NCBI RefSeq assembly: GCF_029910215.1
Contig: NZ_CP110395.1
Location: 3,658,001 to 3,722,000 of the forward strand
Direction of reading: 5' to 3'
Length of the DNA: 64,000 nucleotides
Origin: Paraburkholderia sp. D15
GTDB taxonomy: Bacteria > Pseudomonadota > Gammaproteobacteria > Burkholderiales > Burkholderiaceae
Below are positions 13,260 through 27,030 of the stretch, piece after piece. Position 1 is the stretch's first letter. Every line of letters begins with the position of its first letter. The notes below the pieces were generated by a model. It worked only from the letters and a program-made list of their open reading frames with translations, did no database searches and was not told the DNA's origin. The translations under genes were made by a program, and so were the position numbers.

Positions 13260-14249
13260 TTACCAGCTGAAACCCTTCGCATTGCTCTTGTCGATCATCT
13301 TCACGTCGACCGGAATCGCCTTCGGCACATTGGCGCCCCACTTCTTCGCGAGCGCGATGCCGAGCGCGATGCGCACCTGATCGGCTGGGAATTGCGCGGA
13401 GGTTTCGATGAACTTCGAGTTCGGCTTCTGGATCGCGGCGATCGCTTCCGGCGCACCGTCGACGCTGGTCAGCTTGATGTCCTTGCCCGACGATTCGATC
13501 GCCGACAGCGCGCCCATCGAGCCGCCGTCGTTCACGCTGAACACGCCCTTCAGATTCGGATGCGCCTGAATCATGTTCTCCGTGACGGACAACGCGGTCG
13601 CGCGTTCCTGCTTGCCGTTCTGCGTGTCGACGAGCTTGATGCCCGGCACCTTCGCGAGCGCCGCCTTGCAGCCGCGCACGCGTTCGAGAATCGGCACGAC
13701 CGGAATGCCGTCGAGAATCGCGACCTCGCCGCTGCCGCCGATCGATTTCGCCAGATACTCGCAGGCCATTTCGCCGGCGTCGTAGTTCTTCGAGCCGACG
13801 AACGAATCGACCGGGCCATTCGCGTTCGCATCGACGGCGACCACCACCACGCCCGCCTTTTTCGCCGACGTCACCGCCGACTGAATGCCGGTCGAGTCGG
13901 TCGGATTCACCAGCAGGATGTCGATCTTCTTCTGCAGCATGTCCTCGACGTCGCTGACCTGTTTGCTGACGTCGTGGTGCGCGTCGGTCACGACCACGGT
14001 CGCGCCGATCGATGCGGCCGCGTCGTTGAGCGCCTTTTGCATCGTCACGAAATACGGGTTGTTCAACTCCTGGAACGTCATGCCGATCTTCAGCGGCGCG
14101 GCCTGCGCGGCCTGCGCGGCCTGCGCGGCCGGCGCGGCCGGCGCGGCGATCAGCGTCAGCCCGAAAGCGAGCGCCGCGAAGGCCGCCGCGCCGCGGGAAA
14201 ACGATTGGATCGTCGTGCGCGGGGCGGGGGTGGAAGCGAATTGCGTCAT
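13260..14249 (-). CDS. Ribose-type periplasmic sugar-binding protein (RbsB family)
   Basis: The start at 14249 (GGAGACAACC before the ATG) gives 329 residues; the longer open frame upstream is not supported. An N-terminal signal peptide ends near residue 40 and is followed by an Ala/Gln/Pro-rich linker encoded by a 9-bp tandem repeat. The mature part starts LKIGMTFQELNNPYFVTM, typical of Peripla_BP_4 proteins, and contains LLVNPTDSTGIQSAV and VDANANGPVDSFVGS. It binds the imported sugar or polyol in the periplasm and delivers it to the adjacent permease. Ligand unknown; the operon suggests a polyol. Confidence 0.92.
   Translation of the reverse strand: MTQFASTPAPRTTIQSFSRGAAAFAALAFGLTLIAAPAAPAAQAAQAAQAAPLKIGMTFQELNNPYFVTMQKALNDAAASIGATVVVTDAHHDVSKQVSDVEDMLQKKIDILLVNPTDSTGIQSAVTSAKKAGVVVVAVDANANGPVDSFVGSKNYDAGEMACEYLAKSIGGSGEVAILDGIPVVPILERVRGCKAALAKVPGIKLVDTQNGKQERATALSVTENMIQAHPNLKGVFSVNDGGSMGALSAIESSGKDIKLTSVDGAPEAIAAIQKPNSKFIETSAQFPADQVRIALGIALAKKWGANVPKAIPVDVKMIDKSNAKGFSW
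14101..14145. repeat. 9-bp tandem repeat in the binding-protein signal/linker
   Basis: Five 9-base units, three GCCTGCGCG and two GCCGGCGCG, lie in frame and encode repeated Ala-Gln-Ala or Ala-Pro-Ala triplets at the end of the signal peptide of the ribose-type binding protein. Changes in copy number would alter the linker by three residues without frameshift. Confidence 0.85.
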
Positions 14250-14370
14250 GGTTGTCTCCGTTTTTAAAGTGAGCACGTCCGTCACGCCGTCGTGAGACGG
14301 CGCGAGACGAGTTGAAACGCGGGTGAAGTGAAACGCTTCGGCTAACGCGTCAGCGGGAAACGGCGGAAAG

Positions 14371-15354
14371 CTAGGTAGGTGGATAAGCGGCGGCGGCGAC
14401 GCTGCGCGGCAGTCCGGGCGCCAGCACGATGGCCGGCGCATCGACGATGCCCACGCCGCGCGCGGCGGCCTCCTCGGAGGCGTCGCGGCTCGCGTCGTTC
14501 AGTTGCTGATAGCGGCGGAACTTCGAAGGCGCCATGCCCTTCACCGCGAGAAATTGCCGGTTGAAATTCGACAGGTTGTTGAAGCCCGCCTTGAAACAGA
14601 TATCGGTCACGCTCAGCTCGCCGTCCGTCAGCAACTGGCACGCGAGATTGATGCGCATGCGGTTCACGTACTGCACGAACGGCAGCCCGGTATGACGGCG
14701 GAAGTAGCGCGAGAACGCGCTGACGCTCTGCCCCGCGAGTTGCGCGAGATCCGCTTCGCGCAATTCGTTCGCGAGGTTCTTGCCGATGTACGACAGCACG
14801 TGATTGATGCGGGTCGACGCGAAGCTGTTCGGATCGGCCTGATACGCAGGGCTCGCCAGCGTCTCGCGGTCGGTGGCGGTCATCAGGATGTCGAGCATCG
14901 ACATGAACAGCACCAGCCGGCGCAGCCCGCGCGCATGCAGCAGTTCGAGAAACAGCGGCTTGATCGCCTCGCTGGTTTGCGTGCCGAACGACACGCCGCG
15001 GCACGAGTCGGCAAGCAGCGACTCGACCTGGCGCCACTCCGGAAAACTGTCGACGCAACCCGCCACGAACTCCTGACCGAACTGCACGACCAGATTGCGC
15101 TGCGCGATGGTCTCGCCCTCGGGCACGTCGCTCACCCAGTTGTGCGGCAGGTTCGGTCCCATCAGCACCAGATTGCCCGGCGTGTAATTGCTGATGTGGT
15201 CGCCGACGAACATCTTGCCGGTCGTCGCGACGATCAGGTGAATCTCGTACTCCGGGTGGAAATGCCAGCGCACCGTGCGATACGGATAGCCATGCGACCA
15301 CACTTTGAACGATTCGTCGCGGCGCACGGCCACGAGTTCGAGATCGGGTTGCAC
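14371..15354 (-). CDS. AraC-family transcriptional regulator of the ribose-type polyol operon
   Basis: The 327-residue protein has an N-terminal cupin-like sensor region (WHFHPEYEIHLI at about residues 30-41) and a C-terminal AraC DNA-binding domain with two helix-turn-helices, ADLAQLAGQSVSAFSRYFRRHTG and VTDICFKAGFNNLSNFNRQF (about residues 205-275). Such regulators usually activate transport and catabolic genes when a sugar or polyol binds the N-domain. It lies directly upstream of the binding-protein gene in the same direction (121 bases apart) and is probably the local activator. A GXP-rich tail after residue 290 is unremarkable. Confidence 0.9.
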   Translation of the reverse strand: MQPDLELVAVRRDESFKVWSHGYPYRTVRWHFHPEYEIHLIVATTGKMFVGDHISNYTPGNLVLMGPNLPHNWVSDVPEGETIAQRNLVVQFGQEFVAGCVDSFPEWRQVESLLADSCRGVSFGTQTSEAIKPLFLELLHARGLRRLVLFMSMLDILMTATDRETLASPAYQADPNSFASTRINHVLSYIGKNLANELREADLAQLAGQSVSAFSRYFRRHTGLPFVQYVNRMRINLACQLLTDGELSVTDICFKAGFNNLSNFNRQFLAVKGMAPSKFRRYQQLNDASRDASEEAAARGVGIVDAPAIVLAPGLPRSVAAAAYPPT

Positions 15355-15741
15355 TGTCTGCCTCCATGAAGCGGCTCGCCGGGGGCGCCGCTAACCTTCG
15401 TCTTGTATAGCGAAAAGTAGCCTTCAAATGCGCGCGCCACCACTAAAAATGAAACCGCGGACCGATACTTTTTTGCATTCGGGTTAGTCCTGACGCCGAA
15501 CAGGTCAAATTTGATGCAATGCAATACGCACGAAACGGCACGACAACGCACGTCCAATGTACGGCCGCGCAGCGCGAAACGCCGCCGGACGCCTTGCCAC
15601 GCCGCGCTGCGCCACGAAAACGTACGGACCTCGCCTTGACATTCGTATCGCCGGGTACGATCATTCGCTCACAGACAGAGCAAATGCTCCATAAACGCCC
15701 CGCTGCGAGCCGGGCGAGCCAAGGACATTCAGGAGACGTAC
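15355..15741. promoter_or_regulatory. Divergent regulatory region between the AraC operon and dalD
   Basis: This 387-base gap contains the start region of the minus-strand AraC operon and the plus-strand dalD promoter. For dalD I see TTGACA (15636-15641), a 17-base spacer, GATCAT (15659-15664), then a palindrome GAGCA-AA-TGCTC (15678-15689) at about the transcription start. The part nearest the AraC gene (15400-15520) is AT-rich but shows no promoter that I would defend. No small gene is supported here. Confidence 0.7.
15636..15692 (+). promoter_or_regulatory. dalD promoter and operator
   Basis: TTGACA, 17 bases, GATCAT, followed by TTCGCTCA and ACAGAGCAAATGCTCC. The arrangement and most bases match the smoS promoter at 26226-26280. 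The palindrome lies where a repressor would block initiation or early elongation. The likely ligand-sensing protein is the SorC-type regulator encoded two genes downstream. Confidence 0.7.
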
Positions 15742-17154
15742 ATGAACAGCGGGCAAGGCAGCGGCGCGGCCGCACACGTGATCCTGCACATCGGCGCGGG
15801 ATCGTTTCATCGCGCGCATCAGGCGTGGTATCTGCATCGGCTGAACGAGGCCCAGGTGCCCGGCGAGCCGCACTGGTCGCTGACGGTGGGCAACATCCGC
15901 GGCGACATGAATGCGGTGCTCGACGCGCTCGCCGCGCAGCACGGCGTCTACACGCTGGAGACCGTCACGCCGCAGGGCGAGCGCGCCTACGAAACGATCC
16001 GTTCGATCGAGCGCGTGGTGCCGTGGACCGACAGCCTCGACGGGCTGATCGAAGCCGGCGCCGATCCGGCCTGCAAGATCATCGCGTTCACCGTCACCGA
16101 GGGCGGCTATTACCTCGACGAAGACGACGAACTCGACACCGCGAATGCCGATCTCGCCGCCGACCTGAACGGCGGCCACACCACCATCTACGGCGCGCTC
16201 GCGGCCATTCTCGACGCACGCATGAAGCGCGGCGCGGGCCCGGTCACGCTGCAGACCTGCGACAACCTGCGCAGCAACGGCGAGCGCTTCCACGCGGGCA
16301 TGAGCGAGTTTCTCGAGCGGCGCGGCGCGAACGAACTCGCGCAATGGTTCGACGACAACACCGCATGCCCGAGTTCGATGGTCGATCGCATCACGCCGCG
16401 CCCCACGCCGGACGTGCGCGAACGCGTGAAGGCCGCGACCGGCGTCGACGATGCGTGCCCGGTGATGGGCGAAGCGTTCATCCAGTGGGTGATCGAGGAC
16501 AACTTCATCGCCGGCCGGCCCGCATGGGAAAAGGTCGGCGCGGAACTGGTGGACTCGGTGCTGCCGTACGAGGAAGCGAAGATCCGCATCCTGAACGCGC
16601 CGCATAGCTGCATCGCGTGGGCGGGCACGCTGGTCGGCCTGAACTTCATCCACGAAGGCACGCTCGACGCGGACATCAACAAGTTCGCGTTCGACTACGT
16701 GACCGAAGACGTGATTCCGTGTCTCACGCCGAGTCCGCTCGATCTCGAACGGTATCGCGACGTGGTGCTCGAACGCTTCAGCAATCCGTTCATCCAGGAC
16801 ACCAACCAGCGCGTCGCGGCGGACGGCTTCTCGAAGCTGCCCGGCTTCATCGCGCCGACGCTCGCCGAGTGTTTCGAGCGCGGCGTCACGCCGGCCGCCA
16901 CCGCGATGCTGCCGGCGCTGTTCTTCCGCTTCCTGCAACGCTGGCAGGCCGGCGAATTGCCGTACGCGTATCAGGACGGCGTGATGGACGAAAACGTCGC
17001 GCGCGGTTTCTTCGCCGCGCCCGATCCGCTGAAGGCGTTCGCCGCCGATCGTCTGCTGTGGGGCAGCATGGCGCAAACGCCGGAGCTGGAATCGGCGCTC
17101 GAAGGCGCGCTCGCGCGTGTCGACGTGTGGCTGGCCAAACGCGGCGCGGCATAA
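15742..17154 (+). CDS. dalD: D-arabinitol 4-dehydrogenase
   Basis: The 470-residue polyol-specific long-chain dehydrogenase oxidises D-arabitol to D-xylulose with NAD. It starts with the family motif HIGAGSFHRAHQAWYLHRL and contains VTEGGYYLDE, TLQTCDNLRSNGERFH, ITPRPTPDVRERVKAATGVDD, EEAKIRILNAPHSCIAWAG and FIQDTNQRVAADGFSKLPGFIAPTL, which closely follow the Klebsiella DalD sequence as I remember it, more closely than mannitol dehydrogenases. The catalytic lysine is in the VLPYEEAKIRILN block. AGGAGACGTAC precedes the ATG. Xylulokinase follows 225 bases later, completing the conversion of D-arabitol to D-xylulose 5-phosphate. Its promoter shares an operator with the smo operon. Confidence 0.92.
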   Translation: MNSGQGSGAAAHVILHIGAGSFHRAHQAWYLHRLNEAQVPGEPHWSLTVGNIRGDMNAVLDALAAQHGVYTLETVTPQGERAYETIRSIERVVPWTDSLDGLIEAGADPACKIIAFTVTEGGYYLDEDDELDTANADLAADLNGGHTTIYGALAAILDARMKRGAGPVTLQTCDNLRSNGERFHAGMSEFLERRGANELAQWFDDNTACPSSMVDRITPRPTPDVRERVKAATGVDDACPVMGEAFIQWVIEDNFIAGRPAWEKVGAELVDSVLPYEEAKIRILNAPHSCIAWAGTLVGLNFIHEGTLDADINKFAFDYVTEDVIPCLTPSPLDLERYRDVVLERFSNPFIQDTNQRVAADGFSKLPGFIAPTLAECFERGVTPAATAMLPALFFRFLQRWQAGELPYAYQDGVMDENVARGFFAAPDPLKAFAADRLLWGSMAQTPELESALEGALARVDVWLAKRGAA

Positions 17155-17379
17155 CGCGTCGATCGTGGGGCGCCTGACCGTACCGGGATTCACGATTCAC
17201 CGTACCAGCAGGCGGCCCGCGAAAACGCAACCCGCCCGACTCATCGCGCCGCACCTCGCACGGCTCACGCCACGCGAGGCGCGAGCACAAAATGCACAGC
17301 CGCCAGGCTTAATGCGCATGGCATCGCTCGCCATGTGCGGCTAAAGTAGCGCATCTCCAACGACGAAGGTTCCGCGCCC

Positions 17380-18861
17380 ATGTATCTCGGCATCGACCTC
17401 GGCACGTCCGAAGTGAAAGTCCTGCTGCTCGCCTCCGATGGTCGCGTGATCGGCACGGCAGGCTCTCCATTTACCGTTTCGCGCCCGCATCAACGCTGGG
17501 CCGAGCAGAATCCCGAAGACTGGTGGACCGGCACACGCAGCGCGCTCACCGCGCTGCGCGCGAAATATCCGGACGAGTTCGCGCAGATCCGCGGCATCGG
17601 CCTGTCGGGTCAGATGCACGGCGCGGTGCTGCTGGACGCGCAGGACCGCGTGTTGCGCCCGGCGATCCTGTGGAACGACATGCGCAGCGACAAGGAGTGC
17701 GCGGAGCTGACTGAGCGCGCGCCCGACCTGCACAGCGTGGCCGGCAATCTGGCCATGCCGGGTTTCACCGCGCCGAAGTTGCTGTGGGTCGCGCGCCATG
17801 AACCCGATATCTTCGCGCAGACCGCCTGCGTGCTGCTGCCGAAGGACTATCTGCGTCTGCAACTGACGGGTGGCAAGGTGTCCGATCCATCGGATGCGGC
17901 GGGCACGCTGTGGCTCGACGTCGCCAAACGCGACTGGTCCGACTCCCTGCTCGCGGCCTGCGACATGACGCGCGCGCAGATGCCGGACCTCGCCGAGGGC
18001 AGTGCGCCGTCCGGCACGCTGCTGCCCGCGGTGGCGCGTGAATTCGGTCTGCAGGACGGCGTGATCGTCGCGGCGGGCGGCGGCGACAACGCCACCAGCG
18101 CGATCGGCATCGGCGCCACGCAACCGGGCGACGGCTTCGTGTCGCTCGGCACCTCGGGCGTGCTGTGCGTGGTCGGCGACAGCTTCCGGCCGAACCCGGC
18201 TTCGGCGGTGCATGCGTTCTGCCACGCGATTCCGGATCGCTGGCATCAGATGAGCGTGGTGTTGTCGGCGGCGAGCTGTCTGCGCTGGGTCTGCAAGCTC
18301 ACCTCCACCGACGAGCCCACGCTGCTCGCCGAGATCGAAGCGCTGCCGGCCGATGCGCTCACCACCGCGCCGCTGTTCCTGCCATACCTGTCCGGCGAGC
18401 GCACGCCGCACAACGACCCGTACGCGCAAGGCGTGTTCTTCGGCATGAATCACGCGACGGACCGCGCGCTGCTCGGCTACGCGGTGCTCGAAGGCGTGAC
18501 GCTCGCGCTGACCGACGGCCTCGACGCCCTGCGCGCGGCCGGCACCGAAGCGAAGGCGCTGTCGCTGCTGGGCGGCGGTGCGCGCAGCGACTACTGGGCA
18601 CAACTGCTCGCCGACGCGCTCGACACCGCCACCCGTAAGCACGGCGGCGGCGAAACCGGCGCGGCGCTCGGCGCGGCCCGTCTCGGCTGGCTCGCGGCGG
18701 GCGGCGACCCGGCCACCGTGCTGAGCAAACCGCCGATCGAAAAGGAATTCACGCCGAATCCGCGCCGCCACGCCGAACTGCGCGTGCGGCTCGACGCGTA
18801 TCGCGCGTTGTATCGCCACGTGCGGCCGCTGTTCGATCCGGCGCGCGCGCCGCTCGCCTGA
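17380..18861 (+). CDS. xylB: Xylulokinase XylB
   Basis: The 493-residue FGGY kinase phosphorylates D-xylulose to D-xylulose 5-phosphate for the pentose phosphate pathway. The phosphate loop IDLGTSEVKVLLL is at residues 5-17, and GLSGQMHGAVLLD (about residues 75-87), FLPYLSGERTPHNDPYA and LLGGGARSDYWAQLLAD are typical of XylB. It stands between dalD and the SorC-type regulator on the same strand, the expected partner for the ketose made by DalD. A weak GAAGG ribosome-binding site precedes the ATG. The 225-base gap after dalD shows no terminator, so it is probably co-transcribed. Confidence 0.95.
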   Translation: MYLGIDLGTSEVKVLLLASDGRVIGTAGSPFTVSRPHQRWAEQNPEDWWTGTRSALTALRAKYPDEFAQIRGIGLSGQMHGAVLLDAQDRVLRPAILWNDMRSDKECAELTERAPDLHSVAGNLAMPGFTAPKLLWVARHEPDIFAQTACVLLPKDYLRLQLTGGKVSDPSDAAGTLWLDVAKRDWSDSLLAACDMTRAQMPDLAEGSAPSGTLLPAVAREFGLQDGVIVAAGGGDNATSAIGIGATQPGDGFVSLGTSGVLCVVGDSFRPNPASAVHAFCHAIPDRWHQMSVVLSAASCLRWVCKLTSTDEPTLLAEIEALPADALTTAPLFLPYLSGERTPHNDPYAQGVFFGMNHATDRALLGYAVLEGVTLALTDGLDALRAAGTEAKALSLLGGGARSDYWAQLLADALDTATRKHGGGETGAALGAARLGWLAAGGDPATVLSKPPIEKEFTPNPRRHAELRVRLDAYRALYRHVRPLFDPARAPLA

Positions 18862-18947
18862 GCTGAGCGACGGCAAGCCGCGGCCGGTCCCCGTGGAGAC
18901 GACGGGACCGGCTGCTATCATCCGCGCACAACAAGCGAGCCGTTATC

Positions 18948-19895
18948 GTGTCCAAGTCCACAGAAAAACTAGATCTTGCAACTCGCGCCGCCTGGCTTTA
19001 CTACGTCGCCGGCAATACCCAGAACGAGATCGCCGAAAAGCTCCAGGTGTCGCGCCCGGTCGCGCAACGGCTGGTCGCCTTCGCCGTCGAGAAGAACCTG
19101 ATCCGCGTGCGCGTCGATCACCGGCTGGCCGACTGCCTGTCGCTCGCCGATCAACTGTCGAAGCGCTACGGCCTCAGCATGTGCGAGGTCGTGCCGGTGG
19201 ACAGCGACACGCCCGAGGAAGTCGACCGCAAGCTGGCGGTGGCCGGCGCGCAGGTGATGGAGCGTCATCTGAACGAAGACAGGCCGATGGTCGTGGCGGT
19301 CGGCAGCGGCCGGACGCTGAAGGCGTCGGTCGATCAGATCGCGCAGCTGGAGCGTCCGCAGCACCGGTTGGTATCGTTGGTCGGGGCGATCGCCCAGGAC
19401 GGCTCCTCGAACCGTTACGACGTCGCGCTGCACATTTCCGAGAAGACCGGCGGCAAGCATTTTCTGCTGCCCGCGCCGTTGCTCGCCGATAGCGAGGCGG
19501 AGCGCGCGCAGTGGTGCAATCACCGGCTGTACCGGATCGTCGAAACGCTCGCGGCCGAGGCCGATGTGGCGTTCGTCGGGGTCGGCAATATCGGGCCGAA
19601 GTGTCCGCTGTACGAAGACGGCTTCATCACGTCGGGCGAAGTGGACGAGATGATGGACGGCGGCGCCGTCGCCGAAATGCTCGGCCTGCCGATCGATGCG
19701 ACCGGCGCCCATGTCGAATCGCCGACCGGCCGCCGCGTGACCAGCCTGCCGCTCGATTCGCCGCCGCGCCGGCCGACCATCGGCTTTGCCGGCGGCGAGC
19801 GCAAGCGCGAGGCATTGATCGCGGTGCTCAAGGGCGGATGGCTGTCGGGGCTCGTGACCGACGAGCTATGCGCGCGGGCTGCGCTGGCGGCCTAG
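18948..19895 (+). CDS. SorC/DeoR-type sugar-binding transcriptional regulator of the dal-smo polyol genes
   Basis: The protein (315 residues, GTG start at 18948) has an N-terminal helix-turn-helix (NTQNEIAEKLQVSRPVAQRLV, about residues 23-44) and a long C-terminal sugar-binding domain of the SorC type (VAVGSGRTLKASVDQI, FVGVGNIGPKCPLYEDGFIT, ending RKREALIAVLKGGWLSGLVTD). Such regulators sense a phosphorylated or free sugar and repress catabolic genes. It is the last gene of the dalD-xylB unit and converges on smoK. The shared operator upstream of dalD and smoS is its most likely target, by inference. Confidence 0.88.
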   Translation: MSKSTEKLDLATRAAWLYYVAGNTQNEIAEKLQVSRPVAQRLVAFAVEKNLIRVRVDHRLADCLSLADQLSKRYGLSMCEVVPVDSDTPEEVDRKLAVAGAQVMERHLNEDRPMVVAVGSGRTLKASVDQIAQLERPQHRLVSLVGAIAQDGSSNRYDVALHISEKTGGKHFLLPAPLLADSEAERAQWCNHRLYRIVETLAAEADVAFVGVGNIGPKCPLYEDGFITSGEVDEMMDGGAVAEMLGLPIDATGAHVESPTGRRVTSLPLDSPPRRPTIGFAGGERKREALIAVLKGGWLSGLVTDELCARAALAA

Positions 19896-19932
19896 GACGC
19901 GGCGAGCCTGACGGCCCCGGCGGATAGAAAGA

Positions 19933-19961
19933 AGCGGCGCATTGAAGTGAAATGCGCCGCT
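19933..19961. terminator. Intrinsic terminator between the regulator gene and smoK
   Basis: AGCGGCGCATT pairs with AATGCGCCGCT around a seven-base loop, followed by a T-run on the plus strand. On the minus strand the A-rich left flank gives TTTC, so it may also stop smo transcription. Confidence 0.88.
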
Positions 19962-19986
19962 TTTTTCATGTCCAGGGTCACGCTCA

Positions 19987-21096
<1,110 letters not shown>

Positions 21097-21175
21097 GATG
21101 TGTCTCCGTGTAATGCTGTTGTTGCCCTGTCTATGACGTTCTGCCGCCGGGTACCGTGTGTCGTCGCCGCGCGGC

Positions 21176-21901
21176 TCATGTGGCGGGTTGCGGCGCGGCT
21201 GCCGTCGCGCTCAGCGTCCATTGCGCAACCAGTTCCGGCAGCTGCTGCATGTCGTCGAATACGTGACGCGCGCCCGCCGCATGCAACTTGTCGATCTGCG
21301 CGTCGCTCGCATGACCGCCGCCGATGAAGCCCAGCACCGTCATGCCCGCCGCGTTCGCCGCCGTCACGCCGGTGACGCTGTCCTCCACCACGAGGCAGGC
21401 CGACGGCGCGAGCCCGAGTCCCTTCGCCGCCGCCAGATAGACGTCCGGCGCGGGCTTCGGATTCGGCACGGTATCGGCGCAAAACAGCCGCTCGCCGAAG
21501 AAACGCACCAGCCCGGTACGCGCCAGCACGCTTTCCACATACGGGCTGAAGCTGTTGCTCGCGCAACCTTTGACGAGCGGCACCTGGGCGAGCGCCGCCT
21601 CGATCCCTTCCACCGCCGGCGCCTGCATCGCCGCCGCTTCCACCGCGCGACGGATCGCGTCGATGTCGGCCACCTCGAGGCTCTTGCCGAGCCGCGTCGC
21701 CGCGCCCTGCAATACCGCTTCGATACGCAGGCCGAGCAGCGGCAGCACCACCGGCTCGACGTCGGTGCCGGGCCAGCGCGCTTCGAGCTCGTGCACCAGC
21801 ATGCGCGCCGCCACGGCTTCGCTGTCGATCAGCACGCCGTCGCAATCGCAGATCAGCGCGAACTGATGGCCGACCGGCATCTCAACCGGACCTGCTGTCA
21901 T
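21176..21901 (-). CDS. HAD-superfamily hydrolase within the polyol operon
   Basis: The 241-residue protein starts at 21901, overlapping the smoG stop by four bases. It has HAD motif I CDCDGVLIDSE (about residues 17-27; nucleophile the first Asp of DCDGV), motif II KGCASNSFSPY and motif III/IV NPKPAPDVYLAAAKGLG followed by VVEDSVTGVTAANAAGM, the layout of sugar-phosphate phosphatases and beta-phosphoglucomutase-like enzymes. The longer open frame upstream is inside smoG and is not used. Being translationally coupled to the permease it is a true member of the operon; it could dephosphorylate a misphosphorylated sugar or polyol. The substrate is unknown. Confidence 0.85.
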   Translation of the reverse strand: MTAGPVEMPVGHQFALICDCDGVLIDSEAVAARMLVHELEARWPGTDVEPVVLPLLGLRIEAVLQGAATRLGKSLEVADIDAIRRAVEAAAMQAPAVEGIEAALAQVPLVKGCASNSFSPYVESVLARTGLVRFFGERLFCADTVPNPKPAPDVYLAAAKGLGLAPSACLVVEDSVTGVTAANAAGMTVLGFIGGGHASDAQIDKLHAAGARHVFDDMQQLPELVAQWTLSATAAAPQPAT

Positions 21902-22773
21902 TTGACCGCCCCGAACGTAAGGCCGCGCACCAGTTGCTTCTGCGACAGCCAGCCGACGATCAGGATCGGCGCGACCGCCAGCAGCGAAGCCGCCGACAGC
22001 TTGGCCCAGAACAAGCCTTCCGGACTCGAATACGACGCGATGAACACCGTCAGCGGCGCCGCGTTCGAACTCGACAGGTTGATGCTCCAGAACGCTTCGT
22101 TCCACGACAGGATCACGAGCAGCAGCGCGGTGGACGCGAGCCCCGGCAGCGACATCGGCATCAGCAGATAGACGATTTCCTGCCACGTCGCCGCGCCGTC
22201 GATGCGTCCGGCTTCGAGAATGTCGCGCGGAATTTCGGCGAAGTACGTGAACGACATCCACACCGCGATCGGCAGATTGATCAGCGTGTAGACGATCACC
22301 AGACCCGACACCGAATCGAGCAGCCCGCTGTTTTTCCACAGCAGATAGATCGGCACCAGCACGCCGACCGACGGCATCATCTTGGTGGACAGCATCCACA
22401 GCAGCACCTTCTGCGTGCGGCGCGTCGGGAAGAACGCCATCGCGTACGCGGCCGGCACGGCGAGCAGCAGACACAGCACCGTCACGCCGACCGAGATCAG
22501 CACCGAGTTCCACGCGAACGCAAAGTAATTGCTGCGCGCGAACACCTCGCGGAAGCTATCGAGCGTCGGCACGAAGAACAGCGACGACGAATAGGCCTGC
22601 TGTTCCGTCTTGAATGCGGTGATCGTCATCCAGAAGATCGGGAAGAACAGCAGCAACGCGACCAGCCATGCAATGACGCCGGGAATGCCGCGGCGGATCG
22701 CGGCGAACGGCGACTTGGCCGGCACGGTCATCGGCGTCGCGCTGGACACCGGAGTAGAGGCAACCTGGCTCAT
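21898..22773 (-). CDS. smoG: Polyol ABC transporter permease, MalG type (SmoG)
   Basis: The 291-residue inner-membrane protein starts at 22773, inside the stop of smoF (ATGA). It has about six transmembrane helices and the EAA motif EAGRIDGAATWQEIVYLLMPMSLPG at about residues 195-220 that contacts the ATPase. A proline/serine-rich cytoplasmic N-terminus precedes the first helix (IAWLVALLLFFPIFWMTITAF). It pairs with SmoF; the order smoE-smoF-smoG matches sorbitol/mannitol transporters of Rhodobacter. Confidence 0.9.
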   Translation of the reverse strand: MSQVASTPVSSATPMTVPAKSPFAAIRRGIPGVIAWLVALLLFFPIFWMTITAFKTEQQAYSSSLFFVPTLDSFREVFARSNYFAFAWNSVLISVGVTVLCLLLAVPAAYAMAFFPTRRTQKVLLWMLSTKMMPSVGVLVPIYLLWKNSGLLDSVSGLVIVYTLINLPIAVWMSFTYFAEIPRDILEAGRIDGAATWQEIVYLLMPMSLPGLASTALLLVILSWNEAFWSINLSSSNAAPLTVFIASYSSPEGLFWAKLSAASLLAVAPILIVGWLSQKQLVRGLTFGAVK

Positions 22774-23705
22774 TTTTCGTACTCCCCTTTCAGGTTCTTC
22801 GCGAGCATGCGCACGAGGAAGAACGACACGATGTTGGCCAGCACGACCGCGAGAATGCCGCCCGCCGAAGCGAGGCCGACGTCGAACTGCTGCAGGCCGA
22901 GCGAGTAGATCAGGTACGACAGATTGGTGGTCGCGGTGCCCGGACCGCCGCCCGTGGTCGTATAGATTTCGGCGAAGATCGACAGCAGGAAAATCGTCTC
23001 CATCATCACCACCACCGCGATCGCCCGTTTCAGGTGCGGCAGCGTGATGTAGAAGAACATCGAGAACGGTCCCGCACCGTCTATCTTTGCCGCTTCCTTC
23101 TGCTCCTGGTCGAGCGACTGGATCGCGGTGAACAGGATCAGGAACGCGAACGGCAGCCACTGCCACGCGACGATCATGATCACCGCCGTCAGCGGATATT
23201 CGGCGAACCAGTCGATCGGCTGCATGCCGAGCGCGCGCATGCCCTGCGCGATCAGGCCATACACCGGATGCAGGATCATGTTCTTCCAGATCAGCGCGCT
23301 GACCGTCGGCATCACGAAGAACGGGGCAATGGCGAGCAGACGCGCGACGCCCTGACCGTAGAACTTGCGGTCGAACAGAATCGCCATCAGCACGCCGCCG
23401 ACCACGGTGATCACCAGCACCGCCACGATCAGTTCGAGCGTGTGGGCAATCGACGGGCCGAACGACGGGTCGGTGGCGAGAAACTTGTAGTTGTCGAAAC
23501 CGGCGAAACCCTTGAGGTCCGGGTTCAGCAGGTTGTAGCGCGAGAACGAAAACCAGATCGTCATCGCGAGCGGAATCGCCATCCACAACACCAGCACCGC
23601 GACCGAGGGCGTCACCAGCCAGCGGGCGGAATTGGCTTTGCGGGTTTCGCGTTCTTTTTCTGTCTGGGGATGGGCATGCATGAGAGGTAGGCGCAGAGGA
23701 CGCAT
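22770..23705 (-). CDS. smoF: Polyol ABC transporter permease, MalF type (SmoF)
   Basis: The 311-residue permease starts at the ATG at 23705, which has a good AGGTGG site; a second Met at residue 9 is less supported. Six transmembrane helices and an EAA loop (KEAAKIDGAGPFSMFFYITLPHLK, about residues 205-228) place it in the MalF/UgpA class. It is coupled to smoG by a four-base overlap and separated from the binding-protein gene by 242 bases containing strong hairpins. It forms the channel half for the sugar alcohol bound by SmoE. Confidence 0.9.
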   Translation of the reverse strand: MRPLRLPLMHAHPQTEKERETRKANSARWLVTPSVAVLVLWMAIPLAMTIWFSFSRYNLLNPDLKGFAGFDNYKFLATDPSFGPSIAHTLELIVAVLVITVVGGVLMAILFDRKFYGQGVARLLAIAPFFVMPTVSALIWKNMILHPVYGLIAQGMRALGMQPIDWFAEYPLTAVIMIVAWQWLPFAFLILFTAIQSLDQEQKEAAKIDGAGPFSMFFYITLPHLKRAIAVVVMMETIFLLSIFAEIYTTTGGGPGTATTNLSYLIYSLGLQQFDVGLASAGGILAVVLANIVSFFLVRMLAKNLKGEYEK

Positions 23706-23833
23706 GATTGACCACCTGTTCGGTAATGCGCGGACTGTCCGCTGAAGACCGCTGAACCCGATTCCGCGCGAACGGCCGCGACCCTCTTCGCAAGGATCGT
23801 CCGCGCGCGGGGCCGGGGACAGCCCGCTGTGCT

Positions 23834-23900
23834 GCCGGCTGACGGGCGTCAGCCGGCGCGTGCCCGCCGCGTGGCATCGACGCGCAACTCGTGCGCGTCG
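23834..23900 (-). promoter_or_regulatory. Two hairpins between smoE and smoF
   Basis: GCCGGCTGAC (23834-23843) pairs perfectly with GTCAGCCGGC (23848-23857), and CGACGCGCA (23878-23886) with TGCGCGTCG (23892-23900). No T-run follows on the minus strand. Their place just after the binding-protein gene suggests an mRNA-stabilising or partially attenuating element that raises SmoE over the permeases. Confidence 0.6.
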
Positions 23901-23947
23901 GCGCCGCGGCCGGCTACCCGGGTTCTGCTCCGGGCCACTTCTCCAGG

Positions 23948-25270
23948 TTACTTCTGATACCCGGCCTGCTGCACCGCGCGGTTCGCGGTCGCATTGCCGG
24001 CGGCCAGCGCCTGATCGACCGTCATCTGACCGGCAATCGCGCCGGAGATGCTCTGACCGACCACGGTACCGAACGACTGGAACTCGGGAATGCCGACGAA
24101 CTGCACACCGGTGTACGGCACCGGCTTGAGCGTCGGATGATCCGGGTCCGCCGTTTCGATCGCCTTCAGCACGAAGTCGCCGAACGGTGCGGCCTGCTTG
24201 TACTCGGGGCGCGCATAGGTGGACTGACGCGTGCCCGGCGGCACCGAGGCCCAGCCTTCATCCTTCGCGACCAGTTCGATGTACTGCTTCGACGTGGCCC
24301 ACGCGATGAACTTCTTGGCCGAGTCCGCCTGCTTCGACGACTTCGGAATCGCCAGCGCCCATGCCCACAGCCAATGCGAACCCTTCGGCGTGACCGCGAT
24401 CGGCGCCGCGGCGAAGCCGACCTTGTCGGCGATCTGCGACTGCTGCTTGTTGTACAGCATGCCTGCCGCGACCGTCGCGTCGATCCACATCGCGCACTTG
24501 CCCGAGGACATCAGCGTCAGGTTTTCGTTGAAGCCGTTCGAGCTCGCTCCCGGAGGGCCGTCCTTCTTCAGCAGATCGACGTAGAAGGTGATCGCCTTCT
24601 TCCATTCCGGCGAGGTCAGCTGCGCATTCCACTTCTCGTCGAACCAGCGGCCGCCGAAGGTGTTCACCACCGTCGTGCCGTAGGCCATGTTCTCGCCCCA
24701 GCCCGCCTTGCCGCGCAGACAGATGCCGTACACACCGTTGGCCTTGTCCGTCAGCTTGTCGGCGAATTGCGCGATCTGGTCGTAGGTCGGCTGATCGGGC
24801 ATCTTCAGGCCCTTCGCCGCGAACAGGTCCTTGCGGTAATACGTCATCGAGCTTTCGACGTAGAACGGCAGCGCGTACAGCTGGCCGCCGCTCGACAGGC
24901 CGTCGCGGGCCGTCTTCACGACGTCGTTCAGATCGTAATCGGCGGGCAGGCCGGTGAGCGGCGTGAGCCAGCCGCGCTTGCCCCATTGCGGCGTTTCGTA
25001 CGCGCCGATCGTCATCACGTCGAACTGGCCGCTGCCGGTCGTGATGTCGGTGGTGGCACGCTGACGCAGCACGTTTTCCTCGAGAATCACCCAGTTCAGC
25101 TTGATGTCCGGATTCGCCTTTTCGAATTCGGGCGAGAGCTTCTTCAGCTCGATCATGTCCGGATTGTTCAGCGTGGCGATGGTCACCGTCCCCGCCGACG
25201 CGTTCAATGCAAAGCACGCGACGGCGCCGGCACTGGCCGCCTTCAGCGCGAATTTGAGAGCTGGCTTCAT
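23948..25270 (-). CDS. smoE: Polyol-binding periplasmic protein SmoE
   Basis: The 440-residue protein starts at 25270 with a GGAGACAACAC site; the far longer open frame upstream belongs to smoS in another frame. A signal peptide (ALKAASAGAVACFALNASA) ends near residue 26, and the mature protein begins GTVTIATLNNPDM. It has the SBP_bac_1 (maltose-binding type) fold with ITTGSGQFDVMTIGAYETPQWG and YYRKDLFAAKG. It captures sorbitol, mannitol or arabitol for SmoFGK; the exact ligand is inferred from dalD and smoS nearby. It is 116 bases downstream of smoS. Confidence 0.92.
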   Translation of the reverse strand: MKPALKFALKAASAGAVACFALNASAGTVTIATLNNPDMIELKKLSPEFEKANPDIKLNWVILEENVLRQRATTDITTGSGQFDVMTIGAYETPQWGKRGWLTPLTGLPADYDLNDVVKTARDGLSSGGQLYALPFYVESSMTYYRKDLFAAKGLKMPDQPTYDQIAQFADKLTDKANGVYGICLRGKAGWGENMAYGTTVVNTFGGRWFDEKWNAQLTSPEWKKAITFYVDLLKKDGPPGASSNGFNENLTLMSSGKCAMWIDATVAAGMLYNKQQSQIADKVGFAAAPIAVTPKGSHWLWAWALAIPKSSKQADSAKKFIAWATSKQYIELVAKDEGWASVPPGTRQSTYARPEYKQAAPFGDFVLKAIETADPDHPTLKPVPYTGVQFVGIPEFQSFGTVVGQSISGAIAGQMTVDQALAAGNATANRAVQQAGYQK

Positions 25271-25386
25271 GTGTTGTCTCCTTTCTCGTACGTTATGTGA
25301 TGCTGCGTTTGTTCTACGAAAATGACGGTGGATGATCCGGGCGCCCGCACGATGCGGCGCTCGCGCGCCGCGTGCGCGAGTACGCG

Positions 25387-26169
25387 TCAACTCATCCAGT
25401 TGCCGCCGTCGACGTTCAAGGTTTGCGCGGTGATGTAGTCGGCATCCGCCGACGCGAGAAACAGGGCGGCGCCGGTCAGATCGTCCGGCACACCCATGCG
25501 GCCGAGCGGCACCGCTTCGCCGACCAGGCGCTTCTTCTCGCCGAGCGGACGGTTTTCGTAACGGGCGAAGAGCGCGTCGACTTCCTTCCACATCGGCGTA
25601 TCGACGACACCCGGCGCGATGCCGTTCACGTTGATCTTGTGCGGCGCGAGCGCCAGTGCCGCGGACTGGGTATAGCTGAGCACGGCGGCCTTGGTCGCGC
25701 AGTAATGCGACACCAGCGCCTCGCCGCGCCGGCCCGCCTGCGACGACATATTGACGATCTTGCCGCCGCGGCCCTGCTCGACCATTTTCTGCGCGACAGC
25801 CTGCATCAGGAAGAACATGCCCTTCACGTTGACCGCGAACAGGCGGTCGAACACGTCCCAGGATTCGTCGAGGATCGGGCGCATGTCGAACAGCGCCGCG
25901 TTGTTGAACAGAATGTCGATCTGGCCGAAGCGTTCGAGCGTGCTCGCCACGATCCGCTCGATGTCTTCGCGGCGCGTGACGTCCGCGGTGACGCCCAGCA
26001 CGCGCTCGCCGTACTCGGCGCGCAATGCGGCGCCGATGCTGTCCGCCGGCTTCACGTCCACCAGCACGCAGCGCGCGCCTTCGTCCAGATAGCGCCGCGC
26101 CACTGCCTCGCCGATGCCGCTCGCCGCGCCCGTCAGAATCGCCACCTTGTCTTGCAATCGTGCCGCCAC
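25387..26169 (-). CDS. smoS: Sorbitol dehydrogenase SmoS (SDR family)
   Basis: I start the gene at the GTG at 26169, which has GGAGACAG five bases upstream, giving 260 residues that line up with other SmoS proteins; the ATG at 26187 would add six residues. It has the SDR motifs TGAASGIGEA, NNAALFDM, the catalytic Ser in NMSSQAGRRGEAL and YCATK, and ends NVDGGNWMS, the characteristic SmoS ending. The enzyme oxidises D-glucitol to D-fructose (and galactitol to tagatose in the Rhodobacter enzyme). It is first in the operon with the transporter genes, behind a strong promoter and two palindromic operators. Confidence 0.92.
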   Translation of the reverse strand: MAARLQDKVAILTGAASGIGEAVARRYLDEGARCVLVDVKPADSIGAALRAEYGERVLGVTADVTRREDIERIVASTLERFGQIDILFNNAALFDMRPILDESWDVFDRLFAVNVKGMFFLMQAVAQKMVEQGRGGKIVNMSSQAGRRGEALVSHYCATKAAVLSYTQSAALALAPHKINVNGIAPGVVDTPMWKEVDALFARYENRPLGEKKRLVGEAVPLGRMGVPDDLTGAALFLASADADYITAQTLNVDGGNWMS

Positions 26170-26206
26170 TGCCTGTCTCCGGTTCATTGCGTTTTTTGCC
26201 TTGCGG

Positions 26207-26280
26207 TGAGCGAACGCTCATCGGTAGAGCAATTGCTCTGTTGTTGATCGAATGATCGGATACGGACCGGGTCATGTCAA
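26207..26280 (-). promoter_or_regulatory. smo operon promoter with two palindromic operators
   Basis: On the minus strand: TTGACA (26280-26275), 17-base spacer, GATCAT (26257-26252), then the perfect 14-bp palindrome AGAGCAATTGCTCT (26226-26239) and a second inverted repeat TGAGCG-AA-CGCTCA (26207-26220). The same -35, spacer length, -10 and first palindrome occur upstream of dalD. The second palindrome has a half-site counterpart (TTCGCTCA) at dalD. Confidence 0.78.
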
Positions 26281-26409: not shown

Positions 26410-26440
26410 CTGACAATTATTTGAGATACGTTATATCATT
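26410..26440 (+). promoter_or_regulatory. Putative zur promoter with overlapping Zur box
   Basis: CTGACA (26410-26415) and TATATC (26432-26437) could be the -35 and -10 elements. The AT-rich imperfect palindrome GATACGTTATATCAT (26424-26438) resembles proteobacterial Zur sites (ATGTTATAACAT type) and covers the -10, which would give autorepression by zinc-loaded Zur. Confidence 0.55.
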
Positions 26441-26550
26441 GCGACCGCGCTGCGCGGCGTGACGCCGGGTTCGGCTTCAGTGGTTTCAGCGGCTCAAGCG
26501 TCGCAACGCCCCCAGCCCCCGCTTTTCCCATTTCGTCAGGACGGAGATCG

Positions 26551-27030
26551 ATGCCGATGGCCCTCTCGCAAGCGGAACACCACGCCATCCGGCTCGCCCA
26601 TGCGGAGGCGCACGCTGCCTTGCACGGCCTCGCGCTGACGCCGCTGCGCCGCCAGGTGTACGCGGCGATCGTCGAGAGCGAGCGGCCGGTCGGCGCGTAC
26701 GAATTGCTCGATGCGCTCGAACCGCAACGCGGCCGCGTGCCGCCCACCACCGTGTATCGCGCGCTCGACTTTCTGCTCGCGCACGGCTTCGTGCACCGGA
26801 TCGAGTCGAAGAACGCGTATGTGGCCTGCTGCGAGATCGGCGTACCGCATCGCAGCCAGTTCCTGATGTGCGACGGCTGCGGCGCGACCGTCGAGATTCC
26901 CGGCGACGAACTCGCCGGCCCGTTGTCGCACAGCGCGCCGGCGCAAGGCTTCGAGGTGCATCGGCAGGTCATCGAATTGAGCGGCCTGTGTGCGTTGTGC
27001 GCGCGCGCCGCCCGCGGCATCCAACCCTGA
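26551..27030 (+). CDS. zur: Fur-family metalloregulator, Zur-like
   Basis: The 159-residue protein has a Fur-type winged helix (LTPLRRQVYAAI, AYELLDAL, VPPTTVYRALDFL at about residues 28-72) and a dimerisation domain with two CxxC pairs, CDGCG (about 112-116) and CALCA (about 148-152), that hold structural zinc. HRIES, CCEIGVPHRSQF and the CxxC pairs fit Zur better than Fur. It is the first gene before znuA, 54 bases away, so probably an autoregulated repressor of the metal importer. A CGGAGA site precedes the ATG; a second ATG at 26557 is possible. If the transporter carried manganese instead, the regulator might be Mur-like. Confidence 0.85.
   Translation: MPMALSQAEHHAIRLAHAEAHAALHGLALTPLRRQVYAAIVESERPVGAYELLDALEPQRGRVPPTTVYRALDFLLAHGFVHRIESKNAYVACCEIGVPHRSQFLMCDGCGATVEIPGDELAGPLSHSAPAQGFEVHRQVIELSGLCALCARAARGIQP

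Follow-up and report, generated by a model that had tools for sequence, protein, structure and literature searches.

The window analyzed here is a 64,000-nucleotide stretch of DNA from Paraburkholderia sp. D15, and all coordinates are positions within it unless another locus is named. It contains two converging polyol units, dalD-xylB-sorC on the forward strand and smoS-smoE-smoF-smoG-HAD-smoK on the reverse strand, each of them a predicted operon, and the promoters at dalD and smoS carry the same promoter-operator module. At both, TTGACA is followed by 17 bases, a first site, O1 (GATCATTCGMTC), 7 bases, and a second site, O2 (GAGCAAWTGCTC), with the starts of O1 and O2 exactly 19 bp apart. 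The genes and elements are listed below in order of position.

15636..15641, forward strand: -35 hexamer TTGACA of the dalD promoter (promoter scan)
15659..15670, forward strand: O1 at dalD, GATCATTCGCTC, which includes the -10 hexamer GATCAT (15659-15664)
15678..15689, forward strand: O2 at dalD, GAGCAAATGCTC, 19 bp from O1
15742..17154, forward strand: dalD, D-arabinitol 4-dehydrogenase (above the cut-off of NCBIfam NF043014)
17380..18861, forward strand: xylB, xylulokinase (above the cut-off of TIGR01312)
18948..19895, forward strand: sorC, SmoC-like regulator of the SorC family and last gene of the dal unit (Pfam Sugar-bind, 183 bits)
19932..19962, no strand assigned: stem-loop between the converging units (terminator-like on the reverse strand in a scan)
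19987..21096, reverse strand: smoK, ABC transporter ATPase (profile match and kept gene order)
21176..21880, reverse strand: HAD-type phosphatase gene within the smo unit (Pfam HAD)
21898..22773, reverse strand: smoG, ABC permease (named by the Sinorhizobium meliloti gene order, which is conserved)
22770..23705, reverse strand: smoF, ABC permease (profile match and kept gene order)
23948..25270, reverse strand: smoE, ABC substrate-binding protein (named by gene order, which is conserved)
25387..26187, reverse strand: smoS, sorbitol (L-iditol 2-) dehydrogenase (above the cut-off of NF005472)
26208..26219, reverse strand: O3 at smoS, GAGCGTTCGCTC, 19 bp from O2, without a dalD counterpart
26227..26238, reverse strand: O2 at smoS, GAGCAATTGCTC, 19 bp from O1
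26246..26257, reverse strand: O1 at smoS, GATCATTCGATC, which includes the -10 hexamer GATCAT (26252-26257)
26275..26280, reverse strand: -35 hexamer TTGACA of the smoS promoter (promoter scan)

The stem-loop that separates the two units has a T-run on the forward strand too, as judged by eye, and may be a terminator common to both.

A promoter-operator module at dalD and smoS

An earlier note on this DNA had reported near-identical elements upstream of dalD and smoS with unrelated spacers, and both points are borne out. Starting at the -10 hexamer, the two elements align without a gap and share 26 of 32 bases; across 57 bases they share 39, whereas the 17-bp spacers agree at only 6 of 17 positions. 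A simple promoter scan finds exactly TTGACA-17-GATCAT at each of the two genes. The sequence GATCATTCG(C/A)TC, which had been read as the -10 element, does hold the hexamer GATCAT but is not merely a -10; it is also O1, a weaker dyad of the O2 kind that begins 19 bp before O2. Transcription is estimated to start about 7 bases past the -10 hexamer, so that O1 spans the -10 to the start, and O2 follows directly, at about +8 to +19.

The smoS promoter alone contains a third dyad, O3 (GAGCGTTCGCTC), another 19 bp past O2. Scored with a matrix built from the O1 and O2 sites of Paraburkholderia promoters, the O3 position is above zero in 28 of 29 smoS promoters, and the same register at dalD is above zero in none of 33 dalD promoters. 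A third palindrome is present at smoS, as the note had stated, but the half-site that it described at dalD is not in the O3 register; this half-site, CGCTCA, is probably the right arm of O1. The smo promoter may be under tighter control, a suggestion that draws on the conserved O3.

The 12-mer GAGCAAWTGCTC alone was considered as a marker of the regulon and rejected because it is not specific. With up to two mismatches it occurs at 14 places in the window, against 11.2 expected, and with one mismatch at 60 forward and 60 reverse places in the genome, against 18 and 19 for a reversed control. Its exact form is found at three places in the genome, the third within an open reading frame that reads like a methyltransferase gene, and frequent near-matches such as GAGCAGNTGCTC would reflect coding sequence. 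The concern that the motif might be common away from polyol genes does not apply to the exact two-site composite, which is present in the 8.3-Mb genome only at the dalD and smoS promoters. A 56-base model of the module scores 59.2 and 58.5 bits at these promoters (E = 2e-15 and 4e-15), and the next match in the genome scores 16.0 bits (E = 0.06). It is this gap to the next match that counts, and not the height of the scores, because the 62 promoters from which the model was built include the two of this genome.

Conservation within the genus and order

The module is conserved at orthologous promoters across most of Paraburkholderia. The composite is present in 141 of 144 genomes of the genus, with two copies in 135, three in one (G150), one in five and none in three, and the reversed pattern that served as a control is absent from all 144. 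The five genomes with one exact copy each contain a second copy with a single mismatch, 10–14 kb away on the same contig. Three genomes (G028, G079 and G095) keep both copies with the units 21–32 kb apart. The SorC protein is found at E <1e-100 in 141 of the 144 genomes, and the three that lack it are the same three that lack the composite. Among 399 genomes sampled from across the order, four contain the composite, and the same four encode a SorC relative with at least 81% identity.

Alignment of 62 promoters, 33 from dalD and 29 from smoS, localizes this conservation; these promoters also supplied the matrix. The first five bases of the -35 hexamer, TTGAC, are invariant in all 62, most of O1 and O2 is invariant or nearly so, and the spacers vary. 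The smoS promoter of L050 was left out because extrapolation from a partial match had misplaced its start, although the composite is present at this locus; L079 was left out as well. Contig ends leave L056 without dalD and L073 without smoS inside the fetched stretch, and smoS lies outside it in L060 (fetched as L173), L078 (fetched as L174) and L077. Mean identity is 81% among the 33 dalD promoters and 84% among the 29 smoS promoters, compared with 68% between the dalD and smoS promoters of the same genome over a common 56-base block (28 genomes). Promoters are thus more alike by gene than by genome, which indicates that the likeness is old and kept.

The third module in G150 lies on contig C5 (L172:7105-7158) and reads TTGACA, 17 bases, GATCATTTGCTC, 7 bases, GATCAAATGATC, with the same -35 hexamer, 17-bp spacer and 19-bp phase as the resident copies. 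Within L172:7105-9553, the module stands ahead of a gene for a short-chain dehydrogenase (30% identity to SmoS) and of a xylB relative (68% identity), which falls short of the resident xylB in length; the genes after this relative read like transposases. Such a copy would be expected of a module that accompanies polyol genes at any location, and it is one case among 141 genomes.

Locus layout and the 19-bp phase in other families

A relative of the regulator with 56–63% identity is encoded in seven genomes that belong to other families of the order, and the layout of their loci is different. All seven have the transporter genes arranged with dalD and xylB in a single row that diverges from sorC and ends in dalD-xylB. 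Three of these rows are headed by smoS, which was not found inside the fetched stretch at the other four loci; the HAD gene was not found at one of the seven. The gap between sorC and the row contains TTGACA, 17 bases and an O1-like site in all seven loci; a second site begins 19 bp after the first at six of them and 18 bp after it at L171. The best-scoring 19-bp pair lies within this gap in every case, although in L171 that pair sits at the -35, and L169 and L170 have an extra pair at or just before the -35. At none of these loci do the six top-ranked 19-bp pairs include a paired operator ahead of dalD. The split layout, together with both modules, is shared by two more genera of the family to which D15 belongs (L164 and L165). 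In the simplest reading of this spread of layouts, a single ancestral operon split into a pair of converging units that each carry a copy of the module.

The spacing itself was examined in 32 loci around regulator relatives outside the genus, using the matrix of 124 sites, all from the genus, at 34 spacings from 12 to 45, with 100 first-order resamples of each locus as a control. The top-scoring spacing is 19 bp in 21 of the 32 loci, and the 19-bp score is above the best of the 100 resamples in 24, with thin margins at some (L269, L272 and L292). Two loci from another class, L289 and L291, contain a full module ahead of smoE. One reading, judged slightly more probable than the contrary, is that the 19-bp phase of this rigid module long predates the division of one polyol operon into two units with a full copy each, and that it recurs near regulator relatives in several other families, some of them in another class. 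The regulator would then read the spacing as strictly as the letters, and smoS would add a third step.

In four loci of family f60 (L270, L273, L274 and L275), the gap by sorC contains a strong single dyad (GATCAAATGATC, GATCATTTGTTC or alike), weaker in L270, without a 19-bp partner. The f60 regulator may bind another arrangement.

The SorC-type regulator and related systems

SorC-family proteins have a C-terminal sugar-binding domain of about 250 residues and, in the SorC/DeoR subfamily, a short N-terminal homeodomain-like helix-turn-helix of 50–60 residues. The product of the gene at 18948-19895 matches the sugar-binding domain, Pfam PF04198, over residues 59-313 with 183 bits, against a cut-off of 27; for the helix-turn-helix, MarR_2 is the only Pfam match, below cut-off. 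Its nearest solved structures are LsrR (the best, E = 4e-31), DeoR and SorC, and the alignments are near full-length, beginning at residue 11 for LsrR and residue 5 for DeoR. LsrR of Escherichia coli is thus the best structure match by sequence, yet the protein scores 133.7 bits on the NCBIfam LsrR equivalog model, below its cut-off of 486. LsrR regulates quorum-sensing genes, and the gene described here is linked to smoS, smoEFGK and a mannitol/arabitol dehydrogenase gene. Of 25 relatives with 40–53% identity from other orders and classes, 12 have a relative of SmoE encoded within their own 3.9-kb locus. No second relative of the regulator was found in its own genome at E up to 0.001.

The closest known system is the smo locus of S. 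meliloti, which likewise combines smoS, smoEFGK, a mannitol/D-arabitol dehydrogenase gene and possibly a putative phosphatase gene with a DeoR-type regulator and induction by polyols (PMC10433430). In the portions of that account consulted, SmoC is described as DeoR-type and as a negative regulator of the smo operon, MtlK handles both mannitol and D-arabitol, and transcription comprises an operon from smoE to mtlK and an independently transcribed smoC (PMC10433430). The Paraburkholderia locus differs in having two converging units, each with its own promoter and a copy of the double operator, and in placing sorC last in the dal unit, together with xylB. The same portions of the S. meliloti account name no operator (PMC10433430).

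SorC-family proteins are described as tetramers that act on two half-operators and contain phosphosugar-binding domains (PMC11229326, sections consulted). The regulator shares its sugar-binding domain with DeoR and CggR of Bacillus subtilis, which bind two half-operators as a tetramer, and the palindromes of the CggR operator, counted on the operator as printed in that source, start 20 bp apart, versus 19 bp here (PMC11229326). The operators differ in sequence and in position, from +32 to +77 for CggR and from -60 to -21 for DeoR (PMC11229326). Unlike either, the pair described here covers the -10 and the region past the start, and it is repeated at two promoters. A literature search by titles and abstract openings, which covers few subscription papers, returned nothing on this operator or on a split regulon, and two further articles (PMC5343134 and PMC3840689), searched for polyol and SorC terms, yielded nothing relevant. 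The split layout and the 19-bp phase look new.

Proposed mechanism and alternative explanations

The two units very probably carry copies of one promoter with a double operator and would be jointly repressed by a tetramer of the SmoC-like SorC protein, which is a well-supported candidate for the reader of these sites as judged from sequence comparison. Repression by a tetramer across O1 and O2 is proposed because SorC-family repressors are tetramers on half-operators and because SmoC acts negatively, and the position of O1 over the -10 and of O2 past the start fits repression. Paired sites at 19 bp, nearly two helical turns, fit such a tetramer, and the protein would bind O1 and O2 as a dimer of dimers. 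The bound tetramer would cover the -10 and the region just past the start and block dalD-xylB-sorC and smoS-E-F-G-HAD-K together, and O3, in phase at smoS, would add another contact. The repressor would be released by an intermediate of polyol breakdown, either phosphorylated or a keto-sugar, with D-xylulose 5-phosphate and fructose 6-phosphate as the likely candidates. The regulator probably also represses its own gene, since sorC is the last gene of the dal unit. The earlier proposal that dal and smo form one regulon is strongly supported by the conservation of the module, by its uniqueness in the genome, and by the one-row layout elsewhere, in which one such promoter stands beside sorC.

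Several observations weigh against this interpretation. A one-mismatch composite is present on an unrelated contig in two of nine genomes, G074 and G115, both of which belong to the five with a single exact copy, so chance does produce one-mismatch composites. The three genomes without sorC are also without a DalD orthologue (G070 has only a 35% relative), and because presence and absence cannot separate the regulator from the locus, this distribution was set aside as proof of the reader. A weak promoter-like site ahead of sorC (18894-18921) may be a separate promoter for this gene. Outside the genus, a spacing other than 19 bp scores best in 11 of the 32 loci, and the 19-bp score is not above the best resample in eight (L079, which has the one-row layout, L270, L273-L275, L277, L279 and L285). 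Five loci of family f60 (L270, L271 and L273-L275) have no convincing pair; the nominal 19-bp pair of L271, one of the 24 loci above their resamples, falls inside the sorC gene and is probably due to chance. The phase is thus widespread and not universal, and since several of the 32 loci are close kin, the locus counts are not independent.

The sites could be read by another regulator, such as the AraC-type protein encoded beside dalD (14371-15354). AraC-type MtlR plays such a role in Pseudomonas. The gene at 14371-15354 is divergent from dalD across the intergenic gap, and its product matches AraC-type models, all of those listed below their cut-offs. It was not found in 15 of the 33 fetched stretches from the genus, one of these 15 being cut at a contig end and the stretches reaching about 1.5–2 kb past dalD, so that it could be located beyond them; every one of the 33 contains one composite or more. 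The sites are also dyads, and sites of the same kind stand beside sorC relatives in other families, which makes an AraC-type reader very unlikely. Activation by the SorC-type protein at these sites, alone or combined with repression, is also unlikely. A precedent is EryD of S. meliloti, which is similar to SmoC and is cited as a positive and negative regulator in the part of the account consulted (PMC10433430). Against activation, the overlap of O1 with the -10 and the position of O2 immediately after it are typical of repression; the -35 is near consensus; and S. meliloti SmoC acted negatively (PMC10433430).

A recent duplication or gene conversion could also produce two similar promoters, with no regulatory meaning, and the common 56-base block with its mean identity of 68% within a genome speaks for such an event. 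The promoters nevertheless group by gene and not by genome, and the identical columns fall mainly in the -35 and the two sites while the spacers diverge, so this explanation is highly improbable. Joint repression of both units by the SorC-type protein is the preferred interpretation.

Neighboring features

Ahead of sorC (18880-18925), CTATCAT follows an inverted repeat, CCGGTCCC...GGGACCGG. Repeats of this kind, and TATCAT, are present in some of the fetched relatives and missing in others; the element may be a separate sorC promoter or an attenuator. At the other unit, translation of smoS may begin later than the listed ATG (26187). In the region 26160-26187, GGAGA stands before a GTG 18 bases downstream of the listed ATG, and many SmoS relatives align only from residues 2-8.

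The gap ahead of smoS (26410-26550) is common to a divergent gene for a Zur-like regulator (26551-27030), whose best NCBIfam model is Zur, below its cut-off, and which is followed by metal ABC transporter genes. The gap contains a promoter-like site (26410-26439) and a dyad-like stretch, GATACGTTATATCA (26425-26438), which is perhaps a Zur site. On the far side of dalD, the region 13260-15354 contains genes for the AraC-type regulator and an RbsB-like binding protein, divergent from dalD, and these stand beside dalD in only part of the fetched Paraburkholderia stretches.

Significance

The analysis assigns a precise operator and a predicted regulon of two targets to a regulator without a specific name, and the prediction extends to the whole genus. 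The dal and smo units would show, in a natural case, how an operon can be divided and still keep common control because its control element was duplicated. With its 19-bp phase, the module allows a direct test of the tetramer model of SorC-family repressors, by a change of spacing.

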